Source: Natrinema amylolyticum
GTDB taxonomy: Archaea > Halobacteriota > Halobacteria > Halobacteriales > Natrialbaceae
DNA length: 64,000 nt
Assembly: GCF_020515625.1 (NCBI RefSeq)
Contig: NZ_JAIWPJ010000004.1
Location: forward strand, 1-64,000
Direction: 5' to 3'
The position numbers and the translations under genes were made by a program. This document shows, piece by piece, positions 29,314 through 52,384 of this stretch. Numbering within the stretch: the stretch's first letter is position 1; every line of letters begins with the position of its first letter. The notes below the pieces were generated by a model. That model was not told where the DNA came from, ran no database searches, and saw only the letters and a list, made by a program, of their open reading frames with translations.

Positions 29314-30822
29314 ATGGCTAACGCACGTATTACGGTTCATACTGCAGCGGATATCGACCGCATCGAACCCGAAGTCCACGGTCACTTCTCCGAACACCTC
29401 GGGCGGTGTGTCTACGAGGGTCTCTGGACCAGCGACAGCACCGATGAAGACGGGTACCGAGAGGAGGTCGTCTCGCTCCTGTCCGACCTTGAGATTCCCG
29501 TTCTCCGCTGGCCCGGCGGCTGTTTCGCCGACGACTACCACTGGGAAGACGGCATCGGTCCACAGGAGGACCGACCGCGACGCCGGAACCTCTTCTGGGC
29601 GCAGGGCCCGGAGGAGCTCCCCGAGGAGTCCAACGCCTTCGGTACCGACGAGTTCCTGGAACTCTGTGAGCGAATCGGTACGGAGCCGTATCTCGCGGCC
29701 AACGTCGGCTCGGGCGACCCACAGGAGGCTACCGACTGGGTCGAGTACTGCAACTACGACGGCGACACCGAACTCGCCGACCGACGACGCGAGAACGGCC
29801 GAGAGGAGCCCTACGGCGTTAAGTACTGGGGACTCGGCAACGAGAACTGGGGCTGTGGCGGCCAGATGACCCCCGAGCAGTACGCCCGCGAGTACCGGCG
29901 GTACGCGACCTACGTCGGGACCATGGACAACCTGATGCTCGATCACGAACTCGAGCTCATCGCCTGTGGCTTCGAGGGCCACGAGTGGAACCGACGATTC
30001 ATGGAGGAGATCGCGAGCGAGGCCTGGGGCGCGGAGTTCCCGCTCGACCACCTCACGCTGCACCACTACTACGGGCGGACGATGAACGTCTCCGAGGCCG
30101 ACGAGGACCAGTACGACCAGCTCCTCGTCGAGGCCCTCGAGATGGAAGACCACATCGAGCGAATCGCCGCGGCGATCAACGCGGTGGCGACGACCCGCGA
30201 CATCGGCGTCATCATCGACGAGTGGGGCACCTGGCATCCCGAAGCGACGGCCGACAACGGGCTCGAACAGCCGGGGACCGTCCTCGACGCGCTCTCGGCA
30301 GCGGCCGTCCTCGACATCTTCAACCACCACAGCGACGTTGTCACGATGTCGAACATCGCACAGACGGTCAACGTCCTGCAGTGTCTCGTCGAGACCGACG
30401 AGGACGACGCCTGGGCGCGTCCGACCTACCGCGTCTTCGACCTGTACGCACCCCACAAGGGTAGCGAGGCCGTGCAGACGTCGGTCGAGGCCCCGTCGCG
30501 CGAACTCGCCGACGACGCCGAGGACCGCGAACTGCCCCTCGTCGGCGCGTCCGCATCGGTCGACGACGACGAGACCTACGTCACCGTTACGAACCTCGAC
30601 TGCCGCGAGACCCAGACGATCGACGTCACCCTCGAGGGAATCGACCTCGAGTCCTCGTCCATCGAGGCCGAGCTGCTGTTCGCGGACCAGGATCCCGACC
30701 TGGAAGTCGACGCCGACAACGCCGACGAGTTCACCGCCGAGGAACTCGACGTGTCGGTCGACAGCGGTTCCCTGATCGCCGAGCTGCCGGCGTCGACGGT
30801 GGCCGGAATCTCGATCGAATAA
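29314..30822 (+). CDS. GH51 alpha-L-arabinofuranosidase, cytosolic
   Basis: A 502-residue GH51 enzyme without signal peptide or extra domains, the size of classical intracellular AbfA proteins. EPEVHGHFSEHLGRCVYEGLW opens the barrel, followed by RWPGGCFADDYHWEDGIGP. The acid/base is E177 in GLGNENWG and the nucleophile E303 in IIDEWGTWHPE. The C-terminal beta-sandwich covers about 385-502. It would cleave terminal alpha-L-arabinofuranose from imported oligosaccharides. The start is ATG 29314: ACTTATAACA at about 29281-29290 is a TATA box at leaderless distance; the frame opens earlier (29257) without support. A T-run at 30843-30847 follows the stop and may end the message. Confidence 0.9.
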   Translation: MANARITVHTAADIDRIEPEVHGHFSEHLGRCVYEGLWTSDSTDEDGYREEVVSLLSDLEIPVLRWPGGCFADDYHWEDGIGPQEDRPRRRNLFWAQGPEELPEESNAFGTDEFLELCERIGTEPYLAANVGSGDPQEATDWVEYCNYDGDTELADRRRENGREEPYGVKYWGLGNENWGCGGQMTPEQYAREYRRYATYVGTMDNLMLDHELELIACGFEGHEWNRRFMEEIASEAWGAEFPLDHLTLHHYYGRTMNVSEADEDQYDQLLVEALEMEDHIERIAAAINAVATTRDIGVIIDEWGTWHPEATADNGLEQPGTVLDALSAAAVLDIFNHHSDVVTMSNIAQTVNVLQCLVETDEDDAWARPTYRVFDLYAPHKGSEAVQTSVEAPSRELADDAEDRELPLVGASASVDDDETYVTVTNLDCRETQTIDVTLEGIDLESSSIEAELLFADQDPDLEVDADNADEFTAEELDVSVDSGSLIAELPASTVAGISIE

Positions 30823-31602: not shown

Positions 31603-32910
31603 TCACTCGAGGCGAGGGAGGGACGCCTCGTTAGCGTCGATGAGATCCTCGACCATCTCGTGGATCTCGTCCAAACTGAGGGCGGCGCCCGTAAGCGGAT
31701 CCAGTTTCACGGCCTGGTGGACCTTCCGTCGGTCGTTTTCCAGCGCTCCCTCGACCGCGAGTTCGTAGACGGCCGCGTGCCGGCGATCCAGCGCCGCGAG
31801 TTGCGTCGGCAGTTCACCGACCGAACAGGGGTGGAGGCCGGTTCCGTCGACGAGCACCGGCACCTCGACGCACGCGTCGGTCGGGAGGTTCGCGATGGCG
31901 TTCGTCTCGTTGCTCACGTTGAGGTTGAACCGGCGGGGCGTGTCGGTCTCCAGCGAGTGGATGAGTCGAGAGGCGTACTCCTCGGAGCGCTCGGCGCCGA
32001 CCGTCTCGAGGTCGTCCGATAACTCGGCGTCGTTGCGCTCGGCCGATCGTTCTTTCCAGCCCTCGAGATAGGTGGCGGTCTCCATCCGCTCGGCGTAGTC
32101 CGTTCCAGTCATCTCCTCAATGGTCTCCTCGGACGTCCGAACGTAGGGGACGTACTCGCTCATGTGGTGGCTCGACTCGGTCGGAAACGCGCCGAAGTGC
32201 TCCATCATCTCGAAGCGCACGGTGTCGCGCCGGTACGTCTCGGGGTCGTCCATCGCGTCGCGGAGCGCGGGATAGACGGACTCGCCGTCGCGTTCGACCT
32301 CGAGGAACCAGGCCATGTGGTTGATGCCCGCGACCCAGTACTCGAGTTCATCCGCGGGGACGTCGACGTAGTCGGCGATCGCCTCGACGGTGTGGGGAAC
32401 GCTGTGACAGAGCCCGACGGTCTGTACGTCCGTCGCGTCGAACAGCGCCTTACAGAGGATCGCCATCGGGTTCGTGTAGTTCAGCAGGAGCGCGTCGGGG
32501 CACAGCTCCTCCATATCGGCGGCGATATCGAGCAGCGTCGGGATCGTCCGCAGCGCCCGAAAGATCCCGCCGGGCCCGGTCGTGTCGCCGATCGCCTGCT
32601 CGACGCCGTACTCCTCGGGGATCCGGATCTCGTTTTCGAACGGTTCCGTGCCACCGACGTTGATCATGTTGAGGACGTAGTCAGCACCCTCGAGCGCGGC
32701 CCGACGGTCGGTGGTCGCTTCCACCGTCGCCTCGAGGCTGTCGTTGTCCACCATCGCTTGGGCCACCGTTCGGGTCTGCTCGAGCCGGTGCTCGTCGATA
32801 TCCATGAGGACGATTTCGCTGTCGGCGAGCGCGTCGAACGAGAGGACGTCTCCGACGAGATTCTTGGCGAACACCATACTTCCCGCTCCGATGAAGGTAA
32901 TCTGTGTCAT
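31603..32910 (-). CDS. GH4 glycosidase, alpha-galactosidase-like (CHS type), second copy
   Basis: A 435-residue family-4 glycosidase collinear with the copy at 19582. It has ITFIGAGSMVFAKNL at the start, NPMAI near 147-151, C168-H169-S170 in GLCHSVPHT and GINHMAWFLE near 195. The reaction is NAD- and divalent-metal-dependent, through oxidation at C3 and elimination. The two copies share long identical stretches (FENEIRIPEEYGV, DALLLNYTNPMAILC) but differ in the 240-300 region that shapes the pocket, so they may handle different linkages. A TATA-like ACTAATTACT is about 27 bases upstream of the ATG, giving a leaderless transcript. Neighbours are UspA and a MATE exporter. Confidence 0.83.
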   Translation of the reverse strand: MTQITFIGAGSMVFAKNLVGDVLSFDALADSEIVLMDIDEHRLEQTRTVAQAMVDNDSLEATVEATTDRRAALEGADYVLNMINVGGTEPFENEIRIPEEYGVEQAIGDTTGPGGIFRALRTIPTLLDIAADMEELCPDALLLNYTNPMAILCKALFDATDVQTVGLCHSVPHTVEAIADYVDVPADELEYWVAGINHMAWFLEVERDGESVYPALRDAMDDPETYRRDTVRFEMMEHFGAFPTESSHHMSEYVPYVRTSEETIEEMTGTDYAERMETATYLEGWKERSAERNDAELSDDLETVGAERSEEYASRLIHSLETDTPRRFNLNVSNETNAIANLPTDACVEVPVLVDGTGLHPCSVGELPTQLAALDRRHAAVYELAVEGALENDRRKVHQAVKLDPLTGAALSLDEIHEMVEDLIDANEASLPRLE

Positions 32911-35200: not shown

Positions 35201-36976
35201 ATGCCATCACCTGGCAAGGGATCCGTGGGTAAGTCGAATCGACAGTCTATCTCGCGCAGACATCTCCTTCGCGGCAGCGCAATGGGGGGTGCAATGGCGC
35301 TGGCCGGTTGTATGGGAGGTAGCTCGGGGAACACGAACGCGTTCATTGAGCCGATAACGGTCGATCCGACGAACTATCAGTTCAACCATCTCAATCTGCA
35401 GAATCCGTTCTCGCACGCGATGCAGAGCGACCAGCTCCAGCGGTACTTCATCGACGATGGGGAGTTCGAGTCGTACGCGATCTCCATCGAAGAGTTTGAG
35501 GGCGAGACCGCTGTTCTGAAGGTTCGAGACGGCCTCACGTGGCACAACGGCGATCCGGGCGATCCGGTCAACGCCGACGACCTTTACACGAAACTCGTCA
35601 CCGACGCGATTATCGGGGACACGATGTCGACCCTCTGGACGGATATCCAGCGGGCCGGCGACAAGTCCGTCGAACTCACCCTCGACGGAACGATCAACAG
35701 GCAGCTGTTCCAAGACGGACTGAACTACTACTGGCTCGAGACGCCACACCGGCTGTACAAGGACTACGTCGAGCGGTGGGAGGACGCGACGACCGACGAC
35801 GAGATCGCCGACATTCGGAGCGACCTCCGTAACGACTCGTTCGACGAGTCGAAGGTGAAAGGGAACGGCCCCTTCCAGTTCGAGGAGCGGGACAACCGTC
35901 ACCTGAAGATGAGCCTGTACGAACACCACCCCGACGCGGAGAACATTAACTGGGAGAGCTGGGAGCTCCACAAGGTTTCGACCGACACCGCGAGTGTGCT
36001 GCTCGGCGGCGAAGTCGACGGGATCCGGAACTACTCCGCACCGGAATCGGTCTTCAACGAAGCTCCCGACGAGCTCCTGCACGCGCAACTCCCCGCGCTG
36101 TGGGGACTCTCGCTTCCCTTCAACCACGAGGACGATGACTTCGGTAACATTCGGGTTCGACAGGCCATCAGCGAGTTCGTCGACAGACAGGCCTGTGCGG
36201 ACAACTACGGTCGACTCGGACAGCCGGTCGAGGCGCCGAGCGGACTCGTCGGAAACATCGACGGCCAGAACGAGCAGACCAGCCGGTGGGAGGACAAGGT
36301 CTCCGACGAGATGGCCGACCAGCTCTACCGCTACGACGATCCGGAGCGCGGTCGAGAACTGCTCCGCAACGAAGGGTACCAGAAGGACGACGGTACGTGG
36401 TACCGTCCCAACGGTGACCCGTTCGAGATGACGATCAAGGTCCCTGCGGGATACAACGACTGGCATCCGGTCTACCAGACGGTCGTCGATAACCTCGAGA
36501 ACGAGGGTATCAGCACCGAAATGCAGCGGATCGAGGAATCGACGTACTGGGCCGACCACTACACCGCGGCGAACTACAAGGTGGCGTCGACGGGATGGAC
36601 GCTCCAGCGATCCAGTCCGTACTACGTCTTCGATATGTACTACAACATCGACACGGAGTTCATGAATCTCGATCCCGAGAACCTCGAAGCTCCGCCGATG
36701 GGCGACCCCGACGGCGACCTCGAGTCGGTCGATCCGCGCGGACTGATGGACGAGTTGCTCGTCGCACAGGACGAGGAGAGAGCGACCGAGCTCACCGACC
36801 AGCTCGCGTGGATTACTAACCAGACGATCCCCATGCTCCAGATCAACGAGATCAACGACCCGGTCTGGTTCTATACGGACGACTGGGAGGTCCCGGAACC
36901 GGACTCCCCGAAGTATCAGTCGAAGTGGCCCCTCTGGTGGTTCCCGCGAAACGGTGACCTGCAGGCGAAGAACTGA
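35201..36976 (+). CDS. Oligosaccharide/oligopeptide ABC substrate-binding lipoprotein
   Basis: A 591-residue SBP of family 5 (DppA/OppA type). Tat arginines at 19-20 (ISRRHLLRG) and lipobox Cys37 (LAGC) indicate export and lipid anchoring. The body follows the three-lobe cluster C pattern: EFEGETAVLKVRDGLTWHNGDPGDPVNADDLYTKL is the typical segment that precedes the hinge, and IRVRQAISEFVDRQACADNYG is typical of the third region. In archaea and thermophiles this class often carries oligosaccharides rather than peptides. Placed first in a Dpp-like operon amid arabinan enzymes, it is the natural candidate to bind arabino-oligosaccharides. A T-run after the stop and a second promoter may raise its level over the membrane parts. 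Confidence 0.88.
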   Translation: MPSPGKGSVGKSNRQSISRRHLLRGSAMGGAMALAGCMGGSSGNTNAFIEPITVDPTNYQFNHLNLQNPFSHAMQSDQLQRYFIDDGEFESYAISIEEFEGETAVLKVRDGLTWHNGDPGDPVNADDLYTKLVTDAIIGDTMSTLWTDIQRAGDKSVELTLDGTINRQLFQDGLNYYWLETPHRLYKDYVERWEDATTDDEIADIRSDLRNDSFDESKVKGNGPFQFEERDNRHLKMSLYEHHPDAENINWESWELHKVSTDTASVLLGGEVDGIRNYSAPESVFNEAPDELLHAQLPALWGLSLPFNHEDDDFGNIRVRQAISEFVDRQACADNYGRLGQPVEAPSGLVGNIDGQNEQTSRWEDKVSDEMADQLYRYDDPERGRELLRNEGYQKDDGTWYRPNGDPFEMTIKVPAGYNDWHPVYQTVVDNLENEGISTEMQRIEESTYWADHYTAANYKVASTGWTLQRSSPYYVFDMYYNIDTEFMNLDPENLEAPPMGDPDGDLESVDPRGLMDELLVAQDEERATELTDQLAWITNQTIPMLQINEINDPVWFYTDDWEVPEPDSPKYQSKWPLWWFPRNGDLQAKN

Positions 36977-36985
36977 TCGGTCTCC

Positions 36986-36990
36986 TTTTT
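36986..36990 (+). terminator. T-run after the binding-protein gene
   Basis: Five Ts ten bases after the stop codon, ahead of a new TATA box for the permease genes. Archaeal termination depends on T-rich stretches, so this may be a partial terminator that lets the binding protein be made in excess. Confidence 0.35.
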
Positions 36991-37013
36991 AACCAGCCAA
37001 TCAGCTAAAGCGG

Positions 37014-37025
37014 AATTATTATAAG
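37014..37025 (+). promoter_or_regulatory. Promoter of the permease-ATPase operon
   Basis: The AT-rich AATTATTATAAG, about 35 bases before ATG 37054, is a clear TATA box and predicts a start near 37045 with a short leader. It gives the four transport genes downstream their own transcript, separate from the binding protein. Confidence 0.5.
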
Positions 37026-37053
37026 GTAACACGAGCCACAGATACACAAATTA

Positions 37054-38067
37054 ATGTACATAATAAAGCGACTGGGACAAGCATTTGTTACGTTCATCGC
37101 GGTAATCACGGTGACGTTTGGACTGATACGGGCGATACCGGGCGGACCGGCGGACCACATCAGAGCACAAGTCATGCGGAACCGCGGGGCGGACGGCGTG
37201 AGCATGGCCGAAATCAACTCGCTGACCGAGGCGTACACGAACTACGATCCCTCGACTCCGGTGTACGTTCAGTACTTCGATTACGTTACGAACATCCTGC
37301 AAGGGGATCTGGGCCAATCGATGTCGTTCGCCGGCAAGAGCGTCAGCGAACTCATCATCAAGGCCGCCCCGTGGACGATCTTCCTGCTCACGATGGCGAT
37401 CCTGCTCACGTTCGCGATCGGTATCGTGCTCGGCGCGGTCATGGCGTACCGAGAAGGGAGCCGATTCGACACCGGGTCGACGGTCTTCGCGATGTTCCTG
37501 AACTCGGTCCCCTACTACGTCGCGGCGATCTTCCTGGTGTACCTCCTCTCTATTCAGTTGAGTATCTTCCCGCAGTCGGGGAACTACGCCATCGGGATAG
37601 AGCCGGGACTGACGCCCATCTTTATCTCCGACGTATTCTACCACGCGACGCTTCCGATCGCGTCCCTCGTTCTCACCGGATTCGGCGGGGTCGCGATTAC
37701 GATGCGAGGGAACTCGATCCAAGAGATCGGGGAGGACTACATCCGGGTAGCACACCTCCGAGGCGTCCCCGGACGCCGGATCGCGGTCCGGTACGTCGGT
37801 CGGAACGCGCTGCTGCCGATGTACACCAACCTGATGATCTCCGTCGGATTCATGTTCGGTGGCTCGGTCATCCTCGAAGAGATCTTCGCCTACCCCGGCC
37901 TGGGAAGCTACCTCCTGCAAGCGATCCACGCCCGCGATTACCCGCTCATGATGGGGATCTTCCTCGTCATCACCGCTGCCGTTCTGCTCTGTATCCTGAT
38001 CGCGGATCTCACCTACGGGATGATCGATCCGCGAGTCAGCGAGGGCGAAGGCAAGGAGGCCTACTGA
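37054..38067 (+). CDS. Dpp/Opp-type ABC transporter permease 1
   Basis: A 337-residue permease of the DppB/OppB type. It begins with the characteristic first span MYIIKRLGQAFVTFIAVITV followed by the FGLIRAIPGGPAD motif and a long extracytoplasmic loop, then five more spans (for example TIFLLTMAILLTFAIGIVLG). The EAA coupling loop is visible as DYIRVAHLRGVPGRRIAVRY near 229-249, preceding RNALLPMYTNL. It pairs with the DppC-like protein encoded 13 bases downstream to form the membrane channel for the substrate delivered by the lipoprotein at 35201. Confidence 0.88.
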   Translation: MYIIKRLGQAFVTFIAVITVTFGLIRAIPGGPADHIRAQVMRNRGADGVSMAEINSLTEAYTNYDPSTPVYVQYFDYVTNILQGDLGQSMSFAGKSVSELIIKAAPWTIFLLTMAILLTFAIGIVLGAVMAYREGSRFDTGSTVFAMFLNSVPYYVAAIFLVYLLSIQLSIFPQSGNYAIGIEPGLTPIFISDVFYHATLPIASLVLTGFGGVAITMRGNSIQEIGEDYIRVAHLRGVPGRRIAVRYVGRNALLPMYTNLMISVGFMFGGSVILEEIFAYPGLGSYLLQAIHARDYPLMMGIFLVITAAVLLCILIADLTYGMIDPRVSEGEGKEAY

Positions 38068-38080
38068 GAGGTGACATTCG

Positions 38081-39073
38081 ATGGCTGAAACCAATTCAAC
38101 GTTCGACGCGACCGACGACCGCGACAGCACGAGTGACGGATCGACGGCCACCCGTTCGGAACTATACAAGGAATGGATCGACGTGGCCGTCCTCGCCCCG
38201 CTACGGATCGCCTGGAACGACTGGCGAACGAAGGCCGGTTCGCTCATCGTCCTGTTCTACGTACTGATGGGAACGGTCGGCCTCTATCTCGTTCCCGCTC
38301 CGTCGCAAGGACAGGGACCGCGACTGGCAGGCCCCTTCGAGAGTATGTCGTATCCGCTTGGAACGACCCAACTCGGGACGAGCCTCCTCTCGGAGCTCGT
38401 CTACTCGACACCGCCAGTGCTGAAGATGATTCTGGCCGGCGCGGTGTTCTCAACGATCATGGCGACGATCGTCGGGACCATCTCGGGATACAAGGGTGGG
38501 GCCGTCGATACTGTCCTCACAACGTTCACGGACATCGCCATGACCATTCCCGGTCTGCCCCTGATCATCCTCCTGATCGCCGTCTTCGAACCGGAGAGTC
38601 CGTATCTGATCGGCATCTTCCTCACGATCAACGCGTGGGCCGGTCTCGCGCGGTCGATCAGGTCACAGGTGCTCTCGATCAGGGACCACTCCTACGTCGA
38701 AGTCTCTCGAATCATGGGTGCATCCACGCCGAAAATCATCGTGGATGACGTCCTGCCGAACATCATGCCCTACGTGCTGATCAACTTCGTCAACTCCGCA
38801 CGTGGGGTCATCTTCGGTGCAGTCGCGCTGTTCTACCTCGGGCTCCTCAGTGGCTTCTCGTCCAACTGGGGGATCACACTCAACGAGGCGTATACCAACG
38901 CAGCGATCTACTCGTTAGACGCCGTTCACTGGCTACTCTTCCCAATGATAGCGATCGTCGGCCTCTCGTTCGGGCTGGTACTGTTCGCACAGGGAACGGA
39001 GAAACTGTTCAATCCGCGTATCCGGGCGCGCCACGCGGACACGGTCGATGACACTGCGCACTACGAGGAATAA
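38081..39073 (+). CDS. Dpp/Opp-type ABC transporter permease 2
   Basis: A 330-residue DppC/OppC-type permease. An acidic, Ser/Thr-rich N-terminal stretch (about 1-30) leads to the first span (AGSLIVLFYVLMGTVGLYLV), then the large external loop and five further spans. The coupling loop is RDHSYVEVSRIMGASTPKIIV near 200-220. It partners the permease encoded just upstream. Only two bases separate its stop from the next ATPase gene, so the four genes are one transcription unit. Confidence 0.87.
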   Translation: MAETNSTFDATDDRDSTSDGSTATRSELYKEWIDVAVLAPLRIAWNDWRTKAGSLIVLFYVLMGTVGLYLVPAPSQGQGPRLAGPFESMSYPLGTTQLGTSLLSELVYSTPPVLKMILAGAVFSTIMATIVGTISGYKGGAVDTVLTTFTDIAMTIPGLPLIILLIAVFEPESPYLIGIFLTINAWAGLARSIRSQVLSIRDHSYVEVSRIMGASTPKIIVDDVLPNIMPYVLINFVNSARGVIFGAVALFYLGLLSGFSSNWGITLNEAYTNAAIYSLDAVHWLLFPMIAIVGLSFGLVLFAQGTEKLFNPRIRARHADTVDDTAHYEE

Positions 39074-39075
39074 CA

Positions 39076-40128
39076 ATGCAGCGAAAACACACGAAAACCG
39101 TCGACGATCCGATCTTCGAGGTACGGGACACGACCGTCTCGTTCGACATGGAACGAGGGGAATCGAAAGTACTGAACGAAGTAGACATCGACGTGGAACG
39201 GGGTGAGGTCCTCGGTGTCGTCGGCGAAAGCGGCAGCGGGAAATCGATGTTCGCTTCCGCGTTGCTCAACGCGGTCGTCGATCCCGGACAGCTCACCGGC
39301 GACATCACCTTCTACCCCGAGTCGGGGGCGGCTATCGATCTTCTCAGTCTCTCCCAAGACGAGATCAAACAGGTTCGCTGGGAGGAGATCTCGATGGTGT
39401 TCCAGGGCGCGATGAGTTCGTTCAACCCGACGATGTCGATCCGGGACCACTTCCGGGAGACGCTGGCCGTCCACGACTACGACGTCGAGGAGGGGATGGA
39501 ACGCGCTGAAGACCTGCTCGCGGATCTCTACCTCGAGTCGGATCAGGTGTTAGACTCCTATCCCCACGAACTCTCGGGCGGGATGAGCCAGCGAGCACTC
39601 ATCGCATTGAGTCTGGTGCTCGAGCCGGAAGTGCTGGTGATGGACGAGCCGACGGCCGCGCTGGACCTGCTCATGCAGCGCAGCATCATCCGATTGATCA
39701 AGGAGATCGCGGAGGAGCGCGATCTGACGATCGTCTTCATTACGCACGATCTACCGCTGGTCGCAAACCTCGCCGACCGGATCGCGGTCCTCTACGCCTT
39801 CGAGTTCGTCGAGGTCGGCCCCGCGTACGAGGTGTTGACGGAAGCGAAACACCCCTATACGCGGGCGCTGCTCAACTCGACGCCGAATCTGGAGACGCCC
39901 CGCGAGCAGATGAAACCGATCGAGGGCGCGGCACCCGATCCGGTGTCGGTGCCAAACGGGTGTTCGTACCACCCGCGCTGTCCATTGTCCGACGCGACCT
40001 GCGAGCGGGACGATCCGCCACTCGAGTCGGAGACGCCGGAGGACGGTCACGTCGCTGCGTGTCACTACGTCGACAAGGTACCAGAGACGGTTCCGCTGAC
40101 CCTTCAGGAGGTGAAGGTCAATGAGTGA
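39076..40128 (+). CDS. Dpp/Opp-type ABC transporter ATPase 1
   Basis: A 350-residue ATP-binding protein of the DppD/OppD type. Walker A GESGSGKSM near 52-60, signature LSGGMSQRALIALS near 171-184, Walker B VLVMDEPTAALDLL and switch His in FITHDLPLVAN. The C-terminal oligo_HPY region includes the Cys motif CSYHPRCPLSDATC (about 296-309), the usual signature of Dpp/Opp ATPases, in which these cysteines may hold an iron-sulfur cluster. It overlaps the next ATPase gene by eight bases. Drives uptake by the two permeases upstream as a heterodimer with the second ATPase. Confidence 0.88.
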   Translation: MQRKHTKTVDDPIFEVRDTTVSFDMERGESKVLNEVDIDVERGEVLGVVGESGSGKSMFASALLNAVVDPGQLTGDITFYPESGAAIDLLSLSQDEIKQVRWEEISMVFQGAMSSFNPTMSIRDHFRETLAVHDYDVEEGMERAEDLLADLYLESDQVLDSYPHELSGGMSQRALIALSLVLEPEVLVMDEPTAALDLLMQRSIIRLIKEIAEERDLTIVFITHDLPLVANLADRIAVLYAFEFVEVGPAYEVLTEAKHPYTRALLNSTPNLETPREQMKPIEGAAPDPVSVPNGCSYHPRCPLSDATCERDDPPLESETPEDGHVAACHYVDKVPETVPLTLQEVKVNE

Positions 40129-41245
40129 AGACCACGTTGTCTCGCTGCGGGATGTGGAAGTGCACTTCGAGTCCGAGCAGTCGCTCCTCTCCAAGCTCAG
40201 GGGGGAGAGCGAGATCGTCAAAGCCGTCGACGGCATCTCACTGGACATTCCCGAGAACGACGTCGTCGCGCTGGTCGGCGAGAGTGGCTGCGGGAAGTCG
40301 ACCCTCGGAAAGACCTCGATCGGCGTCCAGCGTCCGACCAGCGGCACGGTGACGTACAGAGGCCAGGACATCTGGAAGGCCAAGGACAAAGAAGGGACCG
40401 TCGAGATTCCGCACGACGAGATCCGTCAGTCCCTCCAGATCGTTCCCCAGGATCCGGGTGCGTCGCTCAATCCGAACAAGACGGTGCAACACTCGCTCTC
40501 GAAGCCGCTCAAGCTTCGGCATCCGGAGATGGACTCGTTCGAGCGACGGGAGCGGATCCACGAAATGATCTCGCGGGTCGGCATGTCGCCCCCGGAGGAC
40601 TACGCCAAGCGGTACCCCCACCAGCTTTCGGGCGGCGAGAAGCAGCGCGTCGCGCTGATCCGGGCGCTGCTGATGAACCCCGACCTCATCCTCGCCGACG
40701 AGGCGGTGAGCGCACTCGACGTCTCCCTGCGGATCGACATGATGGATCTCATGCTCGAGTTGCAAGAGGAGTTCGACACGTCGTTCCTGTTCATCAGCCA
40801 CAACCTCTCGAACGCCAGCTACGTCGCCGGGAAGTCCGACGGCCGGATCGGTATCATGTATCTCGGCGAGCTCGTCGAGATCGGTCCCATCGACGAAGTC
40901 CTGGCGAACCCGAAACATCCCTACACCAAGGCGCTGGTGTGGGCGACGCCGAACCTGGATCCCGACGCCGACGCGAAGAGCGAATCGCCGCTCCGGAAGA
41001 TCGACGTTCCGGACCCGCGGAACCCGCCGTCGGGCTGTCGGTTCCACACGCGATGTCCCAAGGCGCGCGAGGCCTGTAAGGGGAACACGCCCGAAGCGGT
41101 GTCGGTCGACGGCGACGAGGACCACACGGTGACCTGCTTCCGGGAGCTCGACGATCACGAGTACTGGGACAGCCCGAAACTCGAGGACGGGCCGACTGAA
41201 ACCGAGAGCGAACGGACCGCACTCGAGGACGAACCGGTTCAGTAG
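40121..41245 (+). CDS. Dpp/Opp-type ABC transporter ATPase 2
   Basis: A 374-residue DppF/OppF-type ATPase. Walker A GESGCGKSTLGK near 51-62, signature LSGGEKQRVALIRALL near 168-183, Walker B LILADEAVSALDVS and the switch His in FISHNLSNASYV. The oligo_HPY tail carries CRFHTRCPKAREAC near 306-319, then an acidic tail of about 35 residues rich in Glu and Thr. Final transport gene of the operon; it overlaps the first ATPase by eight bases, so the two are probably translated together. Confidence 0.88.
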   Translation: MSEDHVVSLRDVEVHFESEQSLLSKLRGESEIVKAVDGISLDIPENDVVALVGESGCGKSTLGKTSIGVQRPTSGTVTYRGQDIWKAKDKEGTVEIPHDEIRQSLQIVPQDPGASLNPNKTVQHSLSKPLKLRHPEMDSFERRERIHEMISRVGMSPPEDYAKRYPHQLSGGEKQRVALIRALLMNPDLILADEAVSALDVSLRIDMMDLMLELQEEFDTSFLFISHNLSNASYVAGKSDGRIGIMYLGELVEIGPIDEVLANPKHPYTKALVWATPNLDPDADAKSESPLRKIDVPDPRNPPSGCRFHTRCPKAREACKGNTPEAVSVDGDEDHTVTCFRELDDHEYWDSPKLEDGPTETESERTALEDEPVQ

Positions 41246-44792: not shown

Positions 44793-45239
44793 ATGGATCC
44801 GTTCACGATTACGGACTCGAACCCGTTCGCACAGCTCCTTGGGATCGAACTAGTCGAAGCGGCGGACGGGCATGCCGAAGCTCGGCTCCCGTTTCGCCGC
44901 GAACTCTCGTCGAACGCCCACACCGAAATCGCACACGGCGGTGTGACCTACGCGCTGGCGGACCACGTCGGCGGGATGGCGATCATCTCCGCCGCCGAAG
45001 AGATCTGCCCGACGATCGATATGCGCATCGACTACCTCGCACCGGCCCGCAGCGATCTCCGGGCGACTGCGACCGTCGTTCGAAACGGAGGGCAGGTCGC
45101 ACCGGTCGATATCGACGTCTACGATGCGGACGATACTCACGTTGCGACGGCCCGCGGCGTTTACAAGGTCGGCCGGTCGTCGGCGGGTTCGACCGACGAG
45201 AATCCCTGGGTACGCGACCAGAGCGACGATAGCGAATGA
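44793..45239 (+). CDS. Hotdog-fold thioesterase (PaaI type)
   Basis: A 148-residue single hotdog-domain protein. The pattern DPFTITDSNPFAQLLGIEL, NAHTEIAHGGVTYALADHVGG and TIDMRIDYLAPARS matches the PaaI/YdiI group of acyl-CoA thioesterases; the Asn and the HGG turn contribute to the CoA and catalytic site, and the Asp in LADHVGG is the usual acidic residue on the central helix. It would hydrolyse phenylacetyl-CoA-type or short acyl-CoA thioesters and relieve CoA sequestration. It opens the acyl-CoA part of the window, ahead of the RdfA pair. The message is probably leaderless (T-rich box near 44760). Confidence 0.85.
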   Translation: MDPFTITDSNPFAQLLGIELVEAADGHAEARLPFRRELSSNAHTEIAHGGVTYALADHVGGMAIISAAEEICPTIDMRIDYLAPARSDLRATATVVRNGGQVAPVDIDVYDADDTHVATARGVYKVGRSSAGSTDENPWVRDQSDDSE

Positions 45240-45556
45240 CGAGCCCGGGGTCGGAGCCGTACCCATGGACAGCGGGGGCCCCGATCATGATACGGCGATT
45301 TCGCTCGGCAACGGCGGTCCGAGTCGTATCGGTCCGCGGATTAGCTGAAGTAGAGGGTGCTAATCCCCGTCTTCAAGGAGTGAACGGAGAATATCAGAGT
45401 GAGCGAGTAGAGCGGGGATACAGCACCCGCACGACCCTCAACCAACTCCACATCGATCAGTATCGCGTGAGGAACCGATACCACAATCAGAGTACCAGTC
45501 GACGGGCGGGTCATCGATCTTTATTCACGGCACATGAACCAACGTTCTTATCTACA
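45240..45556. other. Intergenic DNA with IS200/IS605-end debris
   Basis: No gene. It holds the hairpin-bearing fragment described at 45361-45420 and, near its right end, the TATA-like CTTTATTCAC (about 45521-45530) for the RdfA-type gene. The reading frame of that gene is open through this stretch, but the sequence here has no coding character. Confidence 0.45.
45361..45420 (+). mobile_element. Probable 3'-end remnant of an IS200/IS605 (TnpB-type) element
   Basis: The block contains the stem arms ATCCCCG (45363-45369) and CGGGGAT (45413-45419). The words CGTCTTCAAGGAGTGAACGG and GTGAGCGAGTAGAG between them resemble the conserved 3' end of haloarchaeal tnpB elements, which includes the guide-RNA (omega-RNA) scaffold. 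No tnpB frame remains upstream; the thioesterase gene ends 120 bases before. Assignment rests on memory of these ends. Confidence 0.45.
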
Positions 45557-46162
45557 ATGGGTGAAAAGAGAACGCCGATGAGCGAGTACGGCTGTAAAGT
45601 CTGCCGAGTATTAGACGAGTACGGTATGGAGCGATACGAGGAGCGGCTACTCGAGCAGTGGCAGGCAGACCCCTCTCAGCGGAAGGGGTATCGGCAACTC
45701 GCTGAGTGGTTCAATACGCTCATGCTACGTCGCGAAATGGACCGCGCGGGACTGTCGACCCTCGGCGACGAAGCCGAATCCAAGTACGAGCGGCTACAGT
45801 CGGACGAAGCGGTCGCGGCGGAGGTCGCGACGGAGTTAGAAAATGCAGGGATTCCGATCAATACGTTACGGGACGATTTCGTCTCGTACGGCGTGATTCG
45901 AACCCATCTGAAGGAGTGTCTCGAATCCGATGTCGACCTCTCGAGCGGGGACTGGGAGCGAAACGCGATCGAGATCTCACGGGACCACGCGTCCACGAAA
46001 ATCGAAGAGGCGGTCCGATCGCTCCGGAACAAGGGACGACTCACCGCCGGCGGTGACGTGAGCGTCTCCGTCACCGTCGAACTCGAGTGTGAGAACTGTC
46101 ACGCTCGCGTCCCGAGCGATCGAGCGATCCGTCGCGAATACGTTTGTCGGTGTGATAACTGA
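45557..46162 (+). CDS. rdfA: RdfA family protein (rod-determining factor type)
   Basis: A 201-residue haloarchaeal protein. The N-terminus (CKVCRVLDEYGMERYEERLL), the middle (GYRQLAEWFNTLMLRREMDR, then LRDDFVSYGVIRTHLKECL) and a C-terminal zinc-binding end (CENCHARVPSDRAI ... CRC) match the RdfA family as I know it; the founding member in Haloferax volcanii is needed for rod shape. It is followed after two bases by an SMC-related gene, the usual partner. The start is uncertain between ATG 45557 (short leader after CTTTATTCAC) and ATG 45578 (leaderless after TTCTTATCT). It is likely one of several paralogues in the genome, so a role in cell shape is inference. Confidence 0.72.
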   Translation: MGEKRTPMSEYGCKVCRVLDEYGMERYEERLLEQWQADPSQRKGYRQLAEWFNTLMLRREMDRAGLSTLGDEAESKYERLQSDEAVAAEVATELENAGIPINTLRDDFVSYGVIRTHLKECLESDVDLSSGDWERNAIEISRDHASTKIEEAVRSLRNKGRLTAGGDVSVSVTVELECENCHARVPSDRAIRREYVCRCDN

Positions 46163-46164
46163 TT

Positions 46165-48018
46165 ATGGTTGACCGAACACTGCATCTCGAACTCGAGAAT
46201 ATCGGTGGTATCGAACGCGAAGAACTGTCGATCACCCCGGGACCGACGTTCATTCAGGGCCCGAACGCTGCGAATAAGAGCTCGTTCCTTAAGGGACTGC
46301 TCTTCGCGCTCGGGAGCACGACGGTTCCGATCCGAAGCGGGGCCGACGAGGCTCGCGCAGTGCTCTCGTCCGGCGAGAAGCGCGTCGAGCGGATCGCTCG
46401 ACGGACCGACGCCGGTATCGAGACGACCGGCGAGGCGTGGATCACGGACCCCGACGACGTCACGCTTCTCGAGCGGTTCGCGGGACTACTGGAGACGAAT
46501 TCGCTCAGAAGCGCCGTAGCTCGAAACGAGGACGTCGAGTCGCTCCTGAAAGAGCCGATGGACATCGAGGCGCTCGAGGCGGAGCGATCGACGAAGATGG
46601 CGCGAAAGCGGGAGCTAACAACGGAGATCGAGTCGGCCGGTGACGTCGACGATCGGCTCGAGGACCGAAAACGCGAACTCGCGACGAAACGCGACCGACT
46701 CGACGAACTCGAGTCGACCCTCGAGGAGCTGTACGACGAGCAGGACGACGCCGATACCGACACCGACGGTGTCCTACAGGAGCTGCGCGACGAACGTGCC
46801 GATCTGCGGTCGGACGAGACCGAGTGTGAGACTCAGATCGAACAGCTCGAAGCCGCTATCGACCGTCTCGAGGAGCGGAGGGACGAAATCGAAGCCGACC
46901 TCGAGGACGCGCGAGACGCCGTTGAAGAGACCGATATCGAGGCCCTCGAACGGAAACGCGAGTCCGCGCGGGCCGAACTCGACGACGTAACGGAGCGGCT
47001 CGACGTGTTGCAGTCGGTCCTGACTGCGAATCGCGAGATGGTCGATTCCGAGTTCACGGGCGTACTCGGCAGCGAGACGGGACTGATGGGCGACGAAGTG
47101 ACCTGCTGGACCTGTGGCCGATCGGCGCCGGTCGAGGAGCTTGAAGGGACGATCGAGGAACTGACGGAACTCGTCAAAGCGGACAAACGCCGAAAGCGCG
47201 AACGCGAGCCGGAGATCGAGGAGCTCACCGAGCAGATCGAGCGGGTTCGGCGGTCGGAAACGGAGATCCAGCAGCTCGAGGCGGAGAAAGGGGACGTCGA
47301 GCAGACCCTGGCGAGCCGCCGCGACTCCCTCGAGGAACGACGCGACCAGCGAGAGACGATTCGCGATCGGCTCTCCGAACTCGACGACGAAATCGCCGAT
47401 CGGGCGGCCGATCAGCGCTCCGAACAGTCGGAGCTCACAGACGAGATCGAAGAGACGCGAGTCGAGAAAGAGACGCTTCGACGGGAGATCGAGCGACTCG
47501 AGGAGACCTGTGAGTCCCTCCGCGAAACGCGGGCGGAGCTGGAACGCAAACGCGAGGAAGTCGATCGGCTCTCCGACGAGATCACGGCGTTGACGGATCG
47601 AATCGAGAACCTCGAGAGCGAGCTCCGAGCGGTGTTCAACGAGACGATGGACGAACTGTTGGACGTCCTCGAGTTCGAGCGGATCGAGCGTGTCTGGCTC
47701 GACGGCGAGTTCGAACTCGTGATCGCCCGCGAGATCGACGGCCGGACGCAATCGGACTCCATCGAACACCTCGCCGAGAGCGAACGGGAGATGATCGGGC
47801 TCGTCCTCGCACTTGCCGGGTTCGTCACGTACGACGTCGACGACGTGACACCGGTACTCGTTCTCGACTCGCTGGGTGCGTTCGACGCGGAACGGACCCG
47901 CCGATTGGTCGATTACTTCGCCGACGAAACCGACTATCTGGTCGCGACGGTCCACCCGGAATCCACCGTCGATACCGCGTTCGATACCGTGACGTTCGAG
48001 CCGCCGGTACGGAACTGA
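46165..48018 (+). CDS. Archaea-specific SMC-related coiled-coil ATPase (Sph-like)
   Basis: A 617-residue two-headed rod protein. The N-terminal head has an atypical P-loop, GPNAANKSS at 32-40, in which the usual GxGK glycines are Ala and Asn; such loops are, to my knowledge, a feature of the haloarchaeal Sph-like family. Long acidic coiled coils (about 130-300 and 325-515) flank a zinc-hook-like CWTC at 314-317. The C-terminal head has a signature-like LAESEREMIGL, Walker B VLVLDSLGAF (D568, with Ser569 where SMC proteins have Glu), and ATVHPE as switch region. It is co-transcribed with the RdfA-type gene two bases upstream. Possible roles are DNA or cytoskeleton organisation connected with cell shape. 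Confidence 0.83.
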   Translation: MVDRTLHLELENIGGIEREELSITPGPTFIQGPNAANKSSFLKGLLFALGSTTVPIRSGADEARAVLSSGEKRVERIARRTDAGIETTGEAWITDPDDVTLLERFAGLLETNSLRSAVARNEDVESLLKEPMDIEALEAERSTKMARKRELTTEIESAGDVDDRLEDRKRELATKRDRLDELESTLEELYDEQDDADTDTDGVLQELRDERADLRSDETECETQIEQLEAAIDRLEERRDEIEADLEDARDAVEETDIEALERKRESARAELDDVTERLDVLQSVLTANREMVDSEFTGVLGSETGLMGDEVTCWTCGRSAPVEELEGTIEELTELVKADKRRKREREPEIEELTEQIERVRRSETEIQQLEAEKGDVEQTLASRRDSLEERRDQRETIRDRLSELDDEIADRAADQRSEQSELTDEIEETRVEKETLRREIERLEETCESLRETRAELERKREEVDRLSDEITALTDRIENLESELRAVFNETMDELLDVLEFERIERVWLDGEFELVIAREIDGRTQSDSIEHLAESEREMIGLVLALAGFVTYDVDDVTPVLVLDSLGAFDAERTRRLVDYFADETDYLVATVHPESTVDTAFDTVTFEPPVRN

Positions 48019-48111: not shown

Positions 48112-48597
48112 TCAGTAAACGGGAAGGTAGTTCCCGATATCCACGGCACGGTCAGTTTCGATGAAGTAATCGATGTCAGTCACCGAGTCGAGCGCCCGCA
48201 TCTGGACGAGGAGGTCGTCGATCTCGGCGTTCGATTTCGCGGTGGCGATGCCGTACAGGTCGACGGTCCCGAACCCTTCGGCGACGAACCAGAAGTCCAT
48301 ATTCGACATCGCCTCGAAGACGTCCTGTTTCGCGTTCGCTTCGTCGGCGGTTCTGGCCGTGATGAGGACGATTTCCCAGCTATTGCGTTTCGGGCGCGGT
48401 AAGAAGAAACTCGTCATGTTCTCGAGCAGCGACGTGACGCGGCGGCGGACGCCTTCGCTGCTCAGGTCGATATCGTACTCGGCTAGCTCGGCGGCGATAT
48501 CCGCGTACGGACTCCGCGGATCGTTCGCGAGTATCTCGAGGATCCGTCGATCGATCTCGTCTATTTCGAGGACATCGTCGTCGGAATGGTCCGCCAT
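48112..48597 (-). CDS. Lrp/AsnC-family transcriptional regulator
   Basis: A 161-residue regulator with an N-terminal winged helix (IDEIDRRILEILANDPRSPY, then SSEGVRRRVTSLLE as recognition part) and a C-terminal RAM-like alpha/beta domain (WEIVLITARTADEANAKQDV, then VDLYGIATAKSNAEIDDLL). The TxRTA-like strand and the final VTDIDYFIETD segment are typical of archaeal Lrp proteins that sense small molecules. It lies between the SMC-related gene and the F420-type oxidoreductase, and may regulate the acyl-CoA genes that follow; no operator sequence could be identified. Confidence 0.85.
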   Translation of the reverse strand: MADHSDDDVLEIDEIDRRILEILANDPRSPYADIAAELAEYDIDLSSEGVRRRVTSLLENMTSFFLPRPKRNSWEIVLITARTADEANAKQDVFEAMSNMDFWFVAEGFGTVDLYGIATAKSNAEIDDLLVQMRALDSVTDIDYFIETDRAVDIGNYLPVY

Positions 48598-48689: not shown

Positions 48690-49688
48690 TCACGGCGCTA
48701 GCGCGGTCATCGTCTCGTGTATCTCGTCGGGTTCGGCTCCCCGCGGGAAGGAGACGTTGACGGCGTCCAGTCCGTCGATATCGAGGAACTGCTGCAGTTG
48801 TTCGCGCGCCTCTGCCGGCGTCCCCGCGGCCCCCATCTGGTCGCGCAACTCCTCCCGAACGATCGTCGTGGCGCGGTCCTTGTCGCCCTCCTGCCACAGA
48901 TCGTGAATCTCGTGGGCGACCTCCTCGTACCCCTGACGGGCGAGGTTATCGCGGTAAAACGTTCCCATCCCGCCGATGTAGAATGCGGTGTGTTGGGCGA
49001 CGAGTTCGCGGGCGCGCTCGCCGTCCGCGAGGGCACAGCAGCCCACGGCGAGCGTCACACGGAGGTCGTTGGGATCCCTGTCACCTAACTCGGCGCCGCG
49101 CCGGAGGTCCTCGAGTCGTTCCCTGAGGCCGTCTCTGGTGTAGTTGACGGCGTGCCAGCCGTCGGCGAAGCGACCGGCGAGTTCGACGGCCTTCGGACCG
49201 AGTCCCGCAGCGTCGACCGGTGGTGCCGGCTCCGGCGGGTCACAGCGCAGCCGAAACCCGTCCAGCGAGAAGTACTCGCCGTCGTAGGAGACCGTCTGGC
49301 CGGAGAGGACCTGCTGGACGATCTCGACCGTCTCTCGCGTTCGACGCAACGGGTTGCCGAAGTCCATCCCGTGCCAGTTCTCGATGACGATGGGGCCACT
49401 AGGGCCGACGCCGAGTCGGAAGCGGCCGTCGCTGGCCTCCTGCAGCGTGGCGGCTGTCTGCCCGAGCAGCGCCGGTGATCTGGAGTAGATGTTGGCGATG
49501 CTCGTTCCGATCCCGATCTCGTCGGTCCGTTCGGCGGTGGTCGCCATCGCGGTGACGGCGTCCCGTCCCCAGGTCTCCGGAAACCAGACGCGGTCGTAAC
49601 CCAACTCCTCGGCGGTGACCGCTTGATCCACGAGATCCTCGAGCGTGGGCTGTGCACCGACCGGCAGAAAGACGTCCCTATCGGTCAT
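48690..49688 (-). CDS. LLM-class flavin or F420-dependent oxidoreductase
   Basis: A 332-residue luciferase-like barrel protein of the bacterial luciferase/F420-reductase family. FLPVGAQPTLEDLVDQAVTA opens the barrel, WFPETWGRDAVTAMATTAERT and IGIGTSIANIYSRSP form strands two and three, and GRFRLGVGPSGPIVIENWHG is the family's central cofactor segment. In haloarchaea most such proteins use coenzyme F420. The substrate is unknown. The start is ATG 49688, since the minus-strand TATA-like TTTTATTATG lies about 30 bases upstream and overlaps an earlier in-frame ATG at 49712. It is divergent from the thiolase gene. Confidence 0.85.
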   Translation of the reverse strand: MTDRDVFLPVGAQPTLEDLVDQAVTAEELGYDRVWFPETWGRDAVTAMATTAERTDEIGIGTSIANIYSRSPALLGQTAATLQEASDGRFRLGVGPSGPIVIENWHGMDFGNPLRRTRETVEIVQQVLSGQTVSYDGEYFSLDGFRLRCDPPEPAPPVDAAGLGPKAVELAGRFADGWHAVNYTRDGLRERLEDLRRGAELGDRDPNDLRVTLAVGCCALADGERARELVAQHTAFYIGGMGTFYRDNLARQGYEEVAHEIHDLWQEGDKDRATTIVREELRDQMGAAGTPAEAREQLQQFLDIDGLDAVNVSFPRGAEPDEIHETMTALAP

Positions 49689-49859
49689 GTCCGTCTCGTA
49701 TTTCGCATTCATAATAAAAGTATACGACGGACTCGAGAATCGATCGCGACTCGGATCCGAACGGGTTCGACCGAACACGCTCGCCCCGTGTCGATCACGG
49801 CCCGCGTAGCGGAGGGTCAGCGATGGGATTTATACGCATACGCTACGCAGTGGGAGTCG

Positions 49860-51026
49860 ATGGCACGAGCGAGTGTCGTGGGTGCCGGCATGACGACGTT
49901 CGGCCCCCACGAACGGACGCTTGCGGAACTGTTCGCCGACGCCGCACTCGAGGCGCTAGACGATGCGGGGACGACGAACGATAGCATCGACGCGTTCTAT
50001 CTCGGGAACACGCTCGGCGGAATGACCGAAAACGAAACCCACCTCGCGCCGAAACTGGCGACGCACGTGGGGATCAACGGCGTGCCCGCACAGCGCTTCG
50101 AAGACGCCTGCGCGACGTCCTCGAACGCGTTCAAGCACGCGGTTCAGGCGGTCGAGAACGGCGTCCACGACGTCGTCCTCGTCGGCGGGGTGGAGCGATG
50201 TACGCCGGAGACGGGACTCGATACGCCGCGAATGACCGAGATATTCGCCAGCGCGTCGGACAGACAGTACGAGCAGCCGGCGGGGATCACCTTCCCCGGC
50301 GTGTTCGCGTTGCTGACCAAACGGCACATGCACGAGTACGGAACGACCGAGGAGCAACTCGCCAGCGTCGCCGTGAAGAACCACGCCAACGGCCAGCACA
50401 ATCCCCACGCCCACTTCGGGAAGGAGGCGACCGTCGAGGAGGTGTTAGAGTCGCCGCTGATCGCGGATCCGTTCCGCCTGATGGACTGCTGTCCCTTCTC
50501 GGACGGAGCGAGCGCGGTCGTCGTCGTCGGCCCTGACGCGGCCGATTCGTTCGACTCGCCGGTCGACGTGAACGGAGTCGGCCACGCAACGGGAACCGTT
50601 CCGGCCGCGGACAAGGAGTCACTGACAGCGACCCAGCCGGCCCGCGACGCGGCGGCATCGGCGTACGAGCAGGCCGGTCGCAGTGCCGCCGACGTCGACT
50701 TCGCCGAAGTCCACGACTGTTTCACCGGTGCCGAGATACTCGCGACGGAAGCGCTCGGATTCTTCGACGACGGCGAGGGCGGTCCCGCCGCCGAAGCGGG
50801 GCGAACCGCTCTCGACGGTGAGATACCGATCAACCCCAGCGGCGGGTTGAAAGCGAAAGGCCACCCGATCGGGGCGACCGGAACCGCACAGATCGTCGAA
50901 CTGACGACGCAGCTCCGCGGCGAGGCCGGCGATCGGCAGATCGCCGACGCGGAAACGGGGCTCGCGCACAATCTCGGCGGCGACGCCGGAACGACCCTCG
51001 TAACGCTCATGGAGGCGCGAGCATGA
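49860..51026 (+). CDS. SCP-x-type thiolase (acetyl-CoA acyltransferase-like)
   Basis: A 388-residue thiolase-fold enzyme. It has the nucleophile C84 in EDACATSSNAF, H285 in VHDCFTGAE and H335 in GGLKAKGHPIGATG, the triad layout of sterol-carrier-protein-x-type thiolases that lack the second Cys of classical thiolases. GDxGTTL near the end is typical. It probably cleaves branched or bulky 3-ketoacyl-CoA, or condenses acyl-CoA, together with the DUF35 protein whose gene overlaps by four bases. TTTATACGC at about 49829-49837 fits a leaderless start at 49860, and the open frame upstream has no coding character. Confidence 0.86.
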   Translation: MARASVVGAGMTTFGPHERTLAELFADAALEALDDAGTTNDSIDAFYLGNTLGGMTENETHLAPKLATHVGINGVPAQRFEDACATSSNAFKHAVQAVENGVHDVVLVGGVERCTPETGLDTPRMTEIFASASDRQYEQPAGITFPGVFALLTKRHMHEYGTTEEQLASVAVKNHANGQHNPHAHFGKEATVEEVLESPLIADPFRLMDCCPFSDGASAVVVVGPDAADSFDSPVDVNGVGHATGTVPAADKESLTATQPARDAAASAYEQAGRSAADVDFAEVHDCFTGAEILATEALGFFDDGEGGPAAEAGRTALDGEIPINPSGGLKAKGHPIGATGTAQIVELTTQLRGEAGDRQIADAETGLAHNLGGDAGTTLVTLMEARA

Positions 51027-51400
51027 GCGCCGACGAACTGATCGACGGCGATCTGACGTACGCGTCCTGGAAACGAGCGCTCCGGGACGGCGTCCTCCTC
51101 GGACAGGAGTGTCGCGATTGCGGTCACGCCACCGCGGCACCGAAGGCGGCGTGTGCACGCTGTGGCTCCCGCGAACTCGAGACGGTCGAACTACCGGCGA
51201 CGGGGACCGTCTATTCTGAGACCACGATCACCGTCCCGCCGCGACGGTTCAGTGACGAGGATCCCTATCAGGTGGCGATCGTCGAACTGGACGAGGCGCG
51301 CGTGATGGCACATATCGACGGTTCGGCCGAGATCGGCGACGAGGTCCGCCTCCGGGGAACGATCGAAGCGGACGACGCGCCGGCACCGCTTTTCGGATAG
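51023..51400 (+). CDS. Zn-ribbon / OB-fold protein (DUF35 family)
   Basis: A 125-residue acyl-CoA-associated protein. The rubredoxin-like zinc ribbon is CRDCGHATAAPKAACARCGS (about 32-51) and an OB-fold follows (GTVYSETTITVPPRRF ... VMAHIDGSAEIGDEVRLRG). DUF35 proteins form complexes with SCP-x-type thiolases and are required for their activity or stability. The four-base ATGA overlap with the thiolase gene supports such a stable complex. Confidence 0.88.
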   Translation: MSADELIDGDLTYASWKRALRDGVLLGQECRDCGHATAAPKAACARCGSRELETVELPATGTVYSETTITVPPRRFSDEDPYQVAIVELDEARVMAHIDGSAEIGDEVRLRGTIEADDAPAPLFG

Positions 51401-51505
51401 CGTATACGACGGTCGCGATACCCGTATCGCGATCCCCGGAGTCCGTCCGGCGACAGTAATTATATTACCGAGGGGCCGGATGGTAGTGGTGAGGTTTGAC
51501 CTAGC

Positions 51506-52384
51506 ATGAATGTTGCAGTCCTAGGAGCTGGCTCCATGGGTCACGGTATCGCCCACGTCAGCGCTCTCGGTGGACACTCGGTTATCGTTCGCGATGTCGA
51601 ACAGGAACTCGTCGAAGACGGTCTCGGACAGATCGAGGCGAATCTCGAGGAAGGGATCGAACGCGAGAAGATTACCCCGGCAGAGAAAGAGGACGCGATT
51701 GAGCGGGTCACGGGAACGGTCTCGCTCGAGGCGGCCGTCGAGGACGCCGATCTCGTCATCGAAGCGGTTCCGGAACAACTCGAGATCAAGCAGGACGTCT
51801 TCTCGGAGGCCGAGGAGTTCGCGCCCGACGACGCGATCATGGCCACGAACACCTCGTCGCTGTCGGTCACGGAAATCGCCAGCGTGTTCGAGGAGCCGTC
51901 CCGCTGTATCGGCCTTCACTTCTTCAACCCCGCTCACATCATGCCGCTCGTGGAGATCGTCGTCGCGGAGCAGACGAGCGAGGAGACGAAGGAGTTCGCC
52001 GACCACTACGTCGAGAGCATCCAGAAAACGCCGACGACGGTCACCGACGTTCCCGGCTTCGCTTCGTCCCGACTCGGCGCGATGTTCAGTCTCGAGGCGA
52101 TCCGAATGGCACAGGAGGGTGTCGCCAGCATCGAGGATATCGACGAGACGATGCGACTGGGGTACAATCTCCCGATGGGACCGATCGAGCTCGTCGACCA
52201 CACTGGGGTCGACGTCAACGTCGAAGTGATGGAGTACCTCCGGGAAGAACTGGGCGAACGGTTCAAGCCGCCGCAGTTGCTGAAACGGAAGCTCCGTGCT
52301 GGAAAGCTGGGACGAAAGACCGGTGAAGGATTCTACGTTTGGGAAGACGGAGAGATCGTCGGCGTCAGCGGTGGCGAGGAGTAA
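51506..52384 (+). CDS. 3-hydroxyacyl-CoA dehydrogenase
   Basis: A 292-residue NAD-dependent beta-oxidation enzyme. The Rossmann loop is VLGAGSMGHGIAHVSALGGH (GxGxxG near 6-11) with the acidic Asp after strand two (VIVRDVEQ). It has the conserved NTSSLSVTEIA segment, and the catalytic His in GLHFFNPAHIMPLVEIV, paired with the Glu in the same segment. The C-terminal domain has the YNLPMGPIELVDHTGVD substrate region, and the end GRKTGEGFYVWEDGE is typical. A TATA-like TAATTATATTAC near 51457-51468 and a GGTGAGG ribosome-binding-like sequence suggest a short leader. Works with the thiolases and acyl-CoA ligases around it. Confidence 0.9.
   Translation: MNVAVLGAGSMGHGIAHVSALGGHSVIVRDVEQELVEDGLGQIEANLEEGIEREKITPAEKEDAIERVTGTVSLEAAVEDADLVIEAVPEQLEIKQDVFSEAEEFAPDDAIMATNTSSLSVTEIASVFEEPSRCIGLHFFNPAHIMPLVEIVVAEQTSEETKEFADHYVESIQKTPTTVTDVPGFASSRLGAMFSLEAIRMAQEGVASIEDIDETMRLGYNLPMGPIELVDHTGVDVNVEVMEYLREELGERFKPPQLLKRKLRAGKLGRKTGEGFYVWEDGEIVGVSGGEE

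Follow-up and report, generated by a model that had tools for sequence, protein, structure and literature searches.

A third haloarchaeal lineage of predicted RdfA-ASRP operons with a linked AsnC-type gene, represented in Natrinema amylolyticum

We characterized a two-gene locus in a 64,000-nucleotide stretch of a Natrinema amylolyticum contig, hereafter the window. The two genes encode a rod-determining factor A (RdfA) protein and an archaea-specific SMC-related protein (ASRP, or Sph); as a sequence-only reading of this DNA had described, they lie on the plus strand with two bases between them, the rdfA stop codon falling at 46160-46162 and the ASRP ATG at 46165, and they form a predicted operon pair (Table 1). 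The genes beyond the convergent AsnC-type gene constitute, by their annotation, a putative acyl-CoA catabolic context for the pair. This downstream gene set recurs in N. salinisoli and H. alkaliphila, and the upstream PaaI-like thioesterase gene has an equivalent position in N. salinisoli.

Table 1. Features of the RdfA-ASRP locus, in window coordinates
Feature	Position	Strand	Basis
PaaI-like hotdog thioesterase, upstream; catabolic context, outside the cassette	44793..45239	+	PF03061, TIGR00369
TATA-like box CTTATCTA of the rdfA-ASRP operon	45547..45554	+	Upstream alignment, 11 clade C loci
rdfA, clade C rod-determining factor A, 194 aa	45578..46162	+	PF21811; start by alignment
ASRP/Sph gene, clade C, 617 aa	46165..48018	+	NF045487; trees
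Walker A variant GPNAANKSS (residues 32-40); Lys retained, preceding Gly replaced by Asn	46258..46284	+	
CWTC zinc hook at the coiled-coil turn (residues 314-317)	47104..47115	+	
Signature motif LAESERE, in place of LSGGE	47770..47790	+	
Walker B VLVLDSLGAFD (residues 564-574), Ser at the expected catalytic Glu	47854..47886	+	
AsnC-type regulator, convergent with rdfA-ASRP; partner of clade C RdfA	48115..48597	-	PF13404 HTH_AsnC-type
F420 luciferase-like oxidoreductase, thiolase, OB-fold protein, 3-hydroxyacyl-CoA dehydrogenase	48690..52381		Pfam, NCBIfam

Profile searches bore out the family assignments that had been made from the letters alone. RdfA matched PF21811 over its full length (positions 1-195 of 195, E value 1.1e-52, 179 bits against a gathering cut-off of 27), and the ASRP matched the equivalog profile NF045487 at 492 bits (cut-off 300) over positions 1-593 of 593. 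In addition, the window ASRP falls in the Sph clade of Halobacteria, in which 85 haloarchaeal rows group with 98% SH-aLRT support against a long-branched outgroup. The start of rdfA had been placed at 45557, where an ATG stands immediately behind the TATA-like box. In an upstream alignment of 11 close relatives, the TATA-like box is conserved and the start codon common to them falls at 45578, where the window reads ATGAGCGAGTA and the eleven relatives ATGAG[CT]G; annotated relatives begin at the codon matching 45578. Together with the position of the TATA box, these starts make 45578-46162 the most likely extent of the gene. Since the box lies about 24 bases ahead of the ATG, the mRNA of the pair is probably leaderless.

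Trees of RdfA (97 rows) and ASRP (88 rows) both resolved the same three clades, A, B and C, with the window pair in clade C of each. The clades differ in Walker A of the ASRP, which reads GRNATNRTS in clade A, xxNWQGKSS in clade B and GPNAxNK[ST]S in clade C. Partners of a pair fall in matching clades, the exception being Halolamina-type loci (L055, L103 and L104), where a clade A RdfA-ASRP pair is followed by the AsnC gene and a further clade C RdfA that has no ASRP of its own. In three further loci (L093, L095 and L054), a clade C RdfA was found with no ASRP nearby; in L093 and L095, the AsnC gene lies about 41 kb off on the same contig. Where both are present, the clade C ASRP gene is directly downstream of rdfA on the same strand (22/22), while order and strand vary in clade A. 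At one locus of Natrinema sp. SYSU A 869 (L048 9606-11458; NZ_CP082247.1 755606-757458), annotation splits the clade C ASRP into two overlapping coding sequences in different frames, and the gene looks frame-shifted or mis-sequenced; RdfA and AsnC are intact there. The matching trees make clade C a third RdfA-ASRP lineage, which is new, as is its AsnC linkage described below.

The conserved cysteines of RdfA, counted over 97 sequences, comprise an N-terminal CKVC and a zinc-ribbon-like CxxC...CxC arrangement at the C terminus. The C-terminal cysteines are mostly common to clades A, B and C; CKVC occurs in 28 of 28 clade C proteins and is not the usual set of residues in clades A and B. A search of solved structures with RdfA gave no significant match, and we set aside a poor AlphaFold model computed from five sequences (mean pLDDT 48), so that any adaptor role for RdfA would rest on these motifs. 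For the ASRP, the predicted model had a good coiled coil, low-confidence head parts and a pTM of 0.35, and the solved-structure search returned only weak matches to Rad50 P-loops.

The ASRP has the expected architecture of Walker A and Walker B motifs flanking a coiled coil with a zinc hook, and both of its ATP motifs are degenerate. GPNAANKSS, DS in place of DE and the CWTC hook, all noted in the sequence-only reading, are present; compared with an active SMC or Rad50 ATPase (GxxxxGK[ST], LSGG, DE), the protein has GPNAANKSS, LAES and DS. Rad50 (GVNGSGKSS, LSGGE) and SMC (GPNGSGKSN) of the same genome have normal P-loops. That reading took the ATP site to be unusual; this is real but is not specific to the window pair, as every haloarchaeal ASRP with a readable C-terminal motif is missing the Walker B Glu, with S, T, A, G, R or Q in its place. 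Three ASRP relatives from other archaea keep DE, and a fourth (L178) has DN. The odd ATP site therefore appears, from these alignments, to be a family-wide trait; we found no published statement of the Glu loss in the literature that we searched, of which coverage was incomplete. In Walker A, nearly all rows of clade A, the main clade, have Arg for Lys (the exception is L167), as in GRNATNRTS, and thus the window ASRP departs less from a normal P-loop than the chromosomal copy does. One RdfA-paired ASRP of a Haloferax-like genome (L187; G278, C8) has the P-loop AGDAADRTS, suggesting that this protein may be without normal ATP binding.

RdfA genes and full ASRP genes each number exactly two in this genome, and all are paired. 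As had been supposed, the window pair is an accessory second copy in a catabolic region: the 2.05 Mb contig C1 has the other pair, and the window pair is on C4, a 313 kb contig that is probably its own replicon, given its two Orc1/Cdc6 genes. The window also holds genes for a GH127 beta-arabinofuranosidase, an alpha-L-arabinofuranosidase and a GH4 glycosidase (24994-26925, 29314-30819 and 31606-32910) with an oligopeptide-type ABC transporter (35201-41242), which suggest that the replicon also bears an island for the use of plant polysaccharides. Compared with two relatives, dN/dS was 0.03-0.18 for rdfA, the ASRP gene and the neighbouring asnC, which points to purifying selection and hence to all three being maintained.

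Clade C was found in 21 of 392 genomes of the order (hits at 45% identity or more) and in 4 of 20 genomes of the window's own genus, and its tree intermixes families; given this patchy spread and family mixing, horizontal transfer is likely. In two genomes (G059 and G102), the clade C RdfA is the sole RdfA. Clade C was not found in two genomes assigned to Haloferax from 92% nucleotide identity to H. alexandrinus, both of which carry clades A and B only; our Sph1-4 labels are inferred from this assignment. The sequence-only reading had raised movement with plasmids. Close relatives were found on plasmids annotated as such in Natrinema, Haloterrigena, Halorussus, Haladaptatus and Halomarina, but at least seven clade C loci are on multi-megabase contigs. 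Across plasmid records, RdfA was matched in 113 and ASRP in 130; a 1.6 Mb plasmid of Natrinema gelatinilyticum (NZ_CP100757.1) has ten RdfA and ten ASRP matching places, unusually many for one replicon. A scan of genome contigs yielded only four close relatives. Neither RdfA nor AsnC had relatives in viral contigs, and RdfA had none in phages, so viral carriage is not supported.

A gene consistently associated with clade C encodes the AsnC-type regulator, whose match to the LysM-like profile NF040947 was below cut-off. All 21 clade C genomes have its subfamily (adjacent in 16; 16-42 kb away on the same contig in 5), as do 10 of 371 others, a co-occurrence with a Fisher p value of 1e-27 that ignores shared ancestry and overstates the linkage, since the genomes are not independent. 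In one of these ten (G297), the AsnC gene lies 74 bases from a more distant RdfA. Among 72,556 plasmid records, 13 carry the subfamily, which in 11 of these adjoins a clade C RdfA, and it was found in none of the 40 loci representing other clades (L106-L145). Two arrangements occur: convergent and downstream in the Natrinema group, and elsewhere directly upstream on the same strand, with gaps of mostly 26-111 bases. We compared the rdfA and asnC promoters for a common palindrome, and the candidate was not convincing.

Clade C sits in acyl-CoA or peptide catabolic islands, on megaplasmids as well as chromosomes. CoA ligase, acyl-CoA dehydrogenase and F420 oxidoreductase genes were found at 15, 10 and 10 of 27 clade C loci compared with 1, 2 and 0 of 40 comparison loci. 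These counts are indicative only, since the search at the window locus covered a longer stretch and the Natrinema loci do not count as independent. Other clade C loci have peptidase and peptide-transport genes. Part of the AsnC linkage could stem from the regulator and the pair both residing in such islands.

In Haloferax volcanii, RdfA and Sph3 are both required for rods and motility, the deletion strains forming disks only and being non-motile (PMC10869688). The link between RdfA and rod shape that the sequence-only reading mentioned is published, within the family for HVO_2174 only. In the same study, an SMC-like gene adjoined 42 of 54 RdfA proteins in 24 genomes, and co-occurrence of the two genes in other genomes was found here too. 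As the pairing and the rod-shape role are already published for Haloferax, an RdfA-ASRP pair is not new as a kind. Sph proteins are members of the ASRP family, as is Sulfolobus coalescin, and have a zinc hook (PMC9389158). Each of the four sph deletions impairs gene conversion in Haloferax, and deletion of sph2 leads to rods (PMC11276520). CsmR, an Lrp/AsnC-type regulator of the archaellum and shape, controls rdfA and sph3 (PMC13286277).

We tentatively propose, at a little under even chances for the explanation as a whole, that clade C is an accessory module. It would spread horizontally between catabolic islands of megaplasmids and chromosomes, with the AsnC-type regulator travelling along, sensing a catabolite and switching the rdfA-ASRP operon. 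The ASRP may bind ATP through its retained Lys and hydrolyse it slowly or not at all, such that dimers engaged at the heads and linked at the hooks would persist on the nucleoid or cell body as a clamp or scaffold. RdfA, with its zinc ribbon, may be an adaptor for the ASRP or a DNA- or protein-binding partner. The outcome might be a substrate-dependent shift in cell shape, motility or chromosome copy handling, comparable to the roles of RdfA-Sph3 and Sph2/4 in Haloferax. A mobile or condition-specific system had been suggested from the window alone, and that suggestion gains support from the patchy spread and the linked AsnC gene, neither of which it had drawn on.

It is also conceivable, though unlikely, that the window pair is a hitch-hiking paralogue whose generic function is no different from that of the chromosomal pair, with the AsnC gene and catabolic neighbours as incidental island cargo. 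The ten genomes with this AsnC type and no clade C, its presence in the catabolic or transporter clusters of two plasmids and its distance from the pair in five clade C genomes would all fit such an account. Against these stand its presence in every clade C genome and the conservation of each of its two arrangements over several families; moreover, the AsnC gene and the pair are the sole common content of otherwise unrelated acyl-CoA and peptide contexts.

A module for plasmid or replicon maintenance, in which RdfA and the SMC-like protein organise or segregate the host megaplasmid, seems improbable to us. Matches are plentiful on plasmids, the window contig has two Orc1/Cdc6 genes, and a plasmid ParA lies within about 5 kb of the pair in H. 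alkaliphila and Halolamina. However, the Orc genes are about 220 kb from the window pair (about 90 kb the other way if the contig is circular), only 2 of 27 clade C loci have ParA nearby, the loci on multi-megabase contigs do not fit, and a regulator in a catabolic setting is untypical of partition loci. A relative of the Wadjet or Lamassu SMC systems, defending against plasmids or phages, is in our view very improbable: the weak matches of the ASRP to LmuB and JetC profiles lie mostly over the coiled coil, the RdfA-JetA match is non-significant (E value 0.067), and PADLOC gave no match for RdfA or AsnC. Furthermore, JetA/B/D or LmuA partner genes are absent, the neighbours are catabolic, and the Haloferax homologues act on shape and gene conversion.

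The accessory-module explanation can be carried further. The lack of Glu across the sampled haloarchaeal Sph clade speaks for a static scaffold and against a motor that extrudes loops. It is worth stating, though we think it somewhat doubtful, that all haloarchaeal Sph/ASRP proteins might be Glu-less, ATP-holding structural clamps and not motors, with clade C a mobile, AsnC-run version through which nutrients reset shape or chromosome organisation. Few genetic handles exist on how archaea control their shape, and the SMC-like partner of RdfA is among them; the tie of clade C to its own AsnC-type gene offers a candidate input signal in a compact three-gene system.

The closest known system is RdfA-Sph3 of Haloferax volcanii (HVO_2174/HVO_2175), in which the same two families are adjacent and RdfA has an SMC-like partner. 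Clade C differs from it in the Walker A Lys, the extra N-terminal CKVC of RdfA and the linked AsnC gene, and the Haloferax experiments concern clades A and B (by our inferred paralogue assignment), which are about 30-40% identical to clade C. CsmR, which controls rdfA and sph3 in Haloferax, is of the Lrp/AsnC type, and the window regulator is AsnC-type. Clade B, which includes a Haloferax paralogue that is probably Sph1, is the sister of clade C in both trees and likewise has a tandem operon and keeps the Lys; unlike clade C, it has a normal P-loop G-K, an LSEG signature and D[G/R/S/Q] in Walker B, and no linked AsnC in the loci examined. The window ASRP belongs to one family with Halobacterium Sph1 and Sph2 and Sulfolobus coalescin (ClsN) through its NF045487 match over cut-off, its coiled coil and its zinc hook. 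Within this wider family, haloarchaeal members are set apart by the missing Walker B Glu that the three relatives from other archaea, ClsN not among them, have kept.
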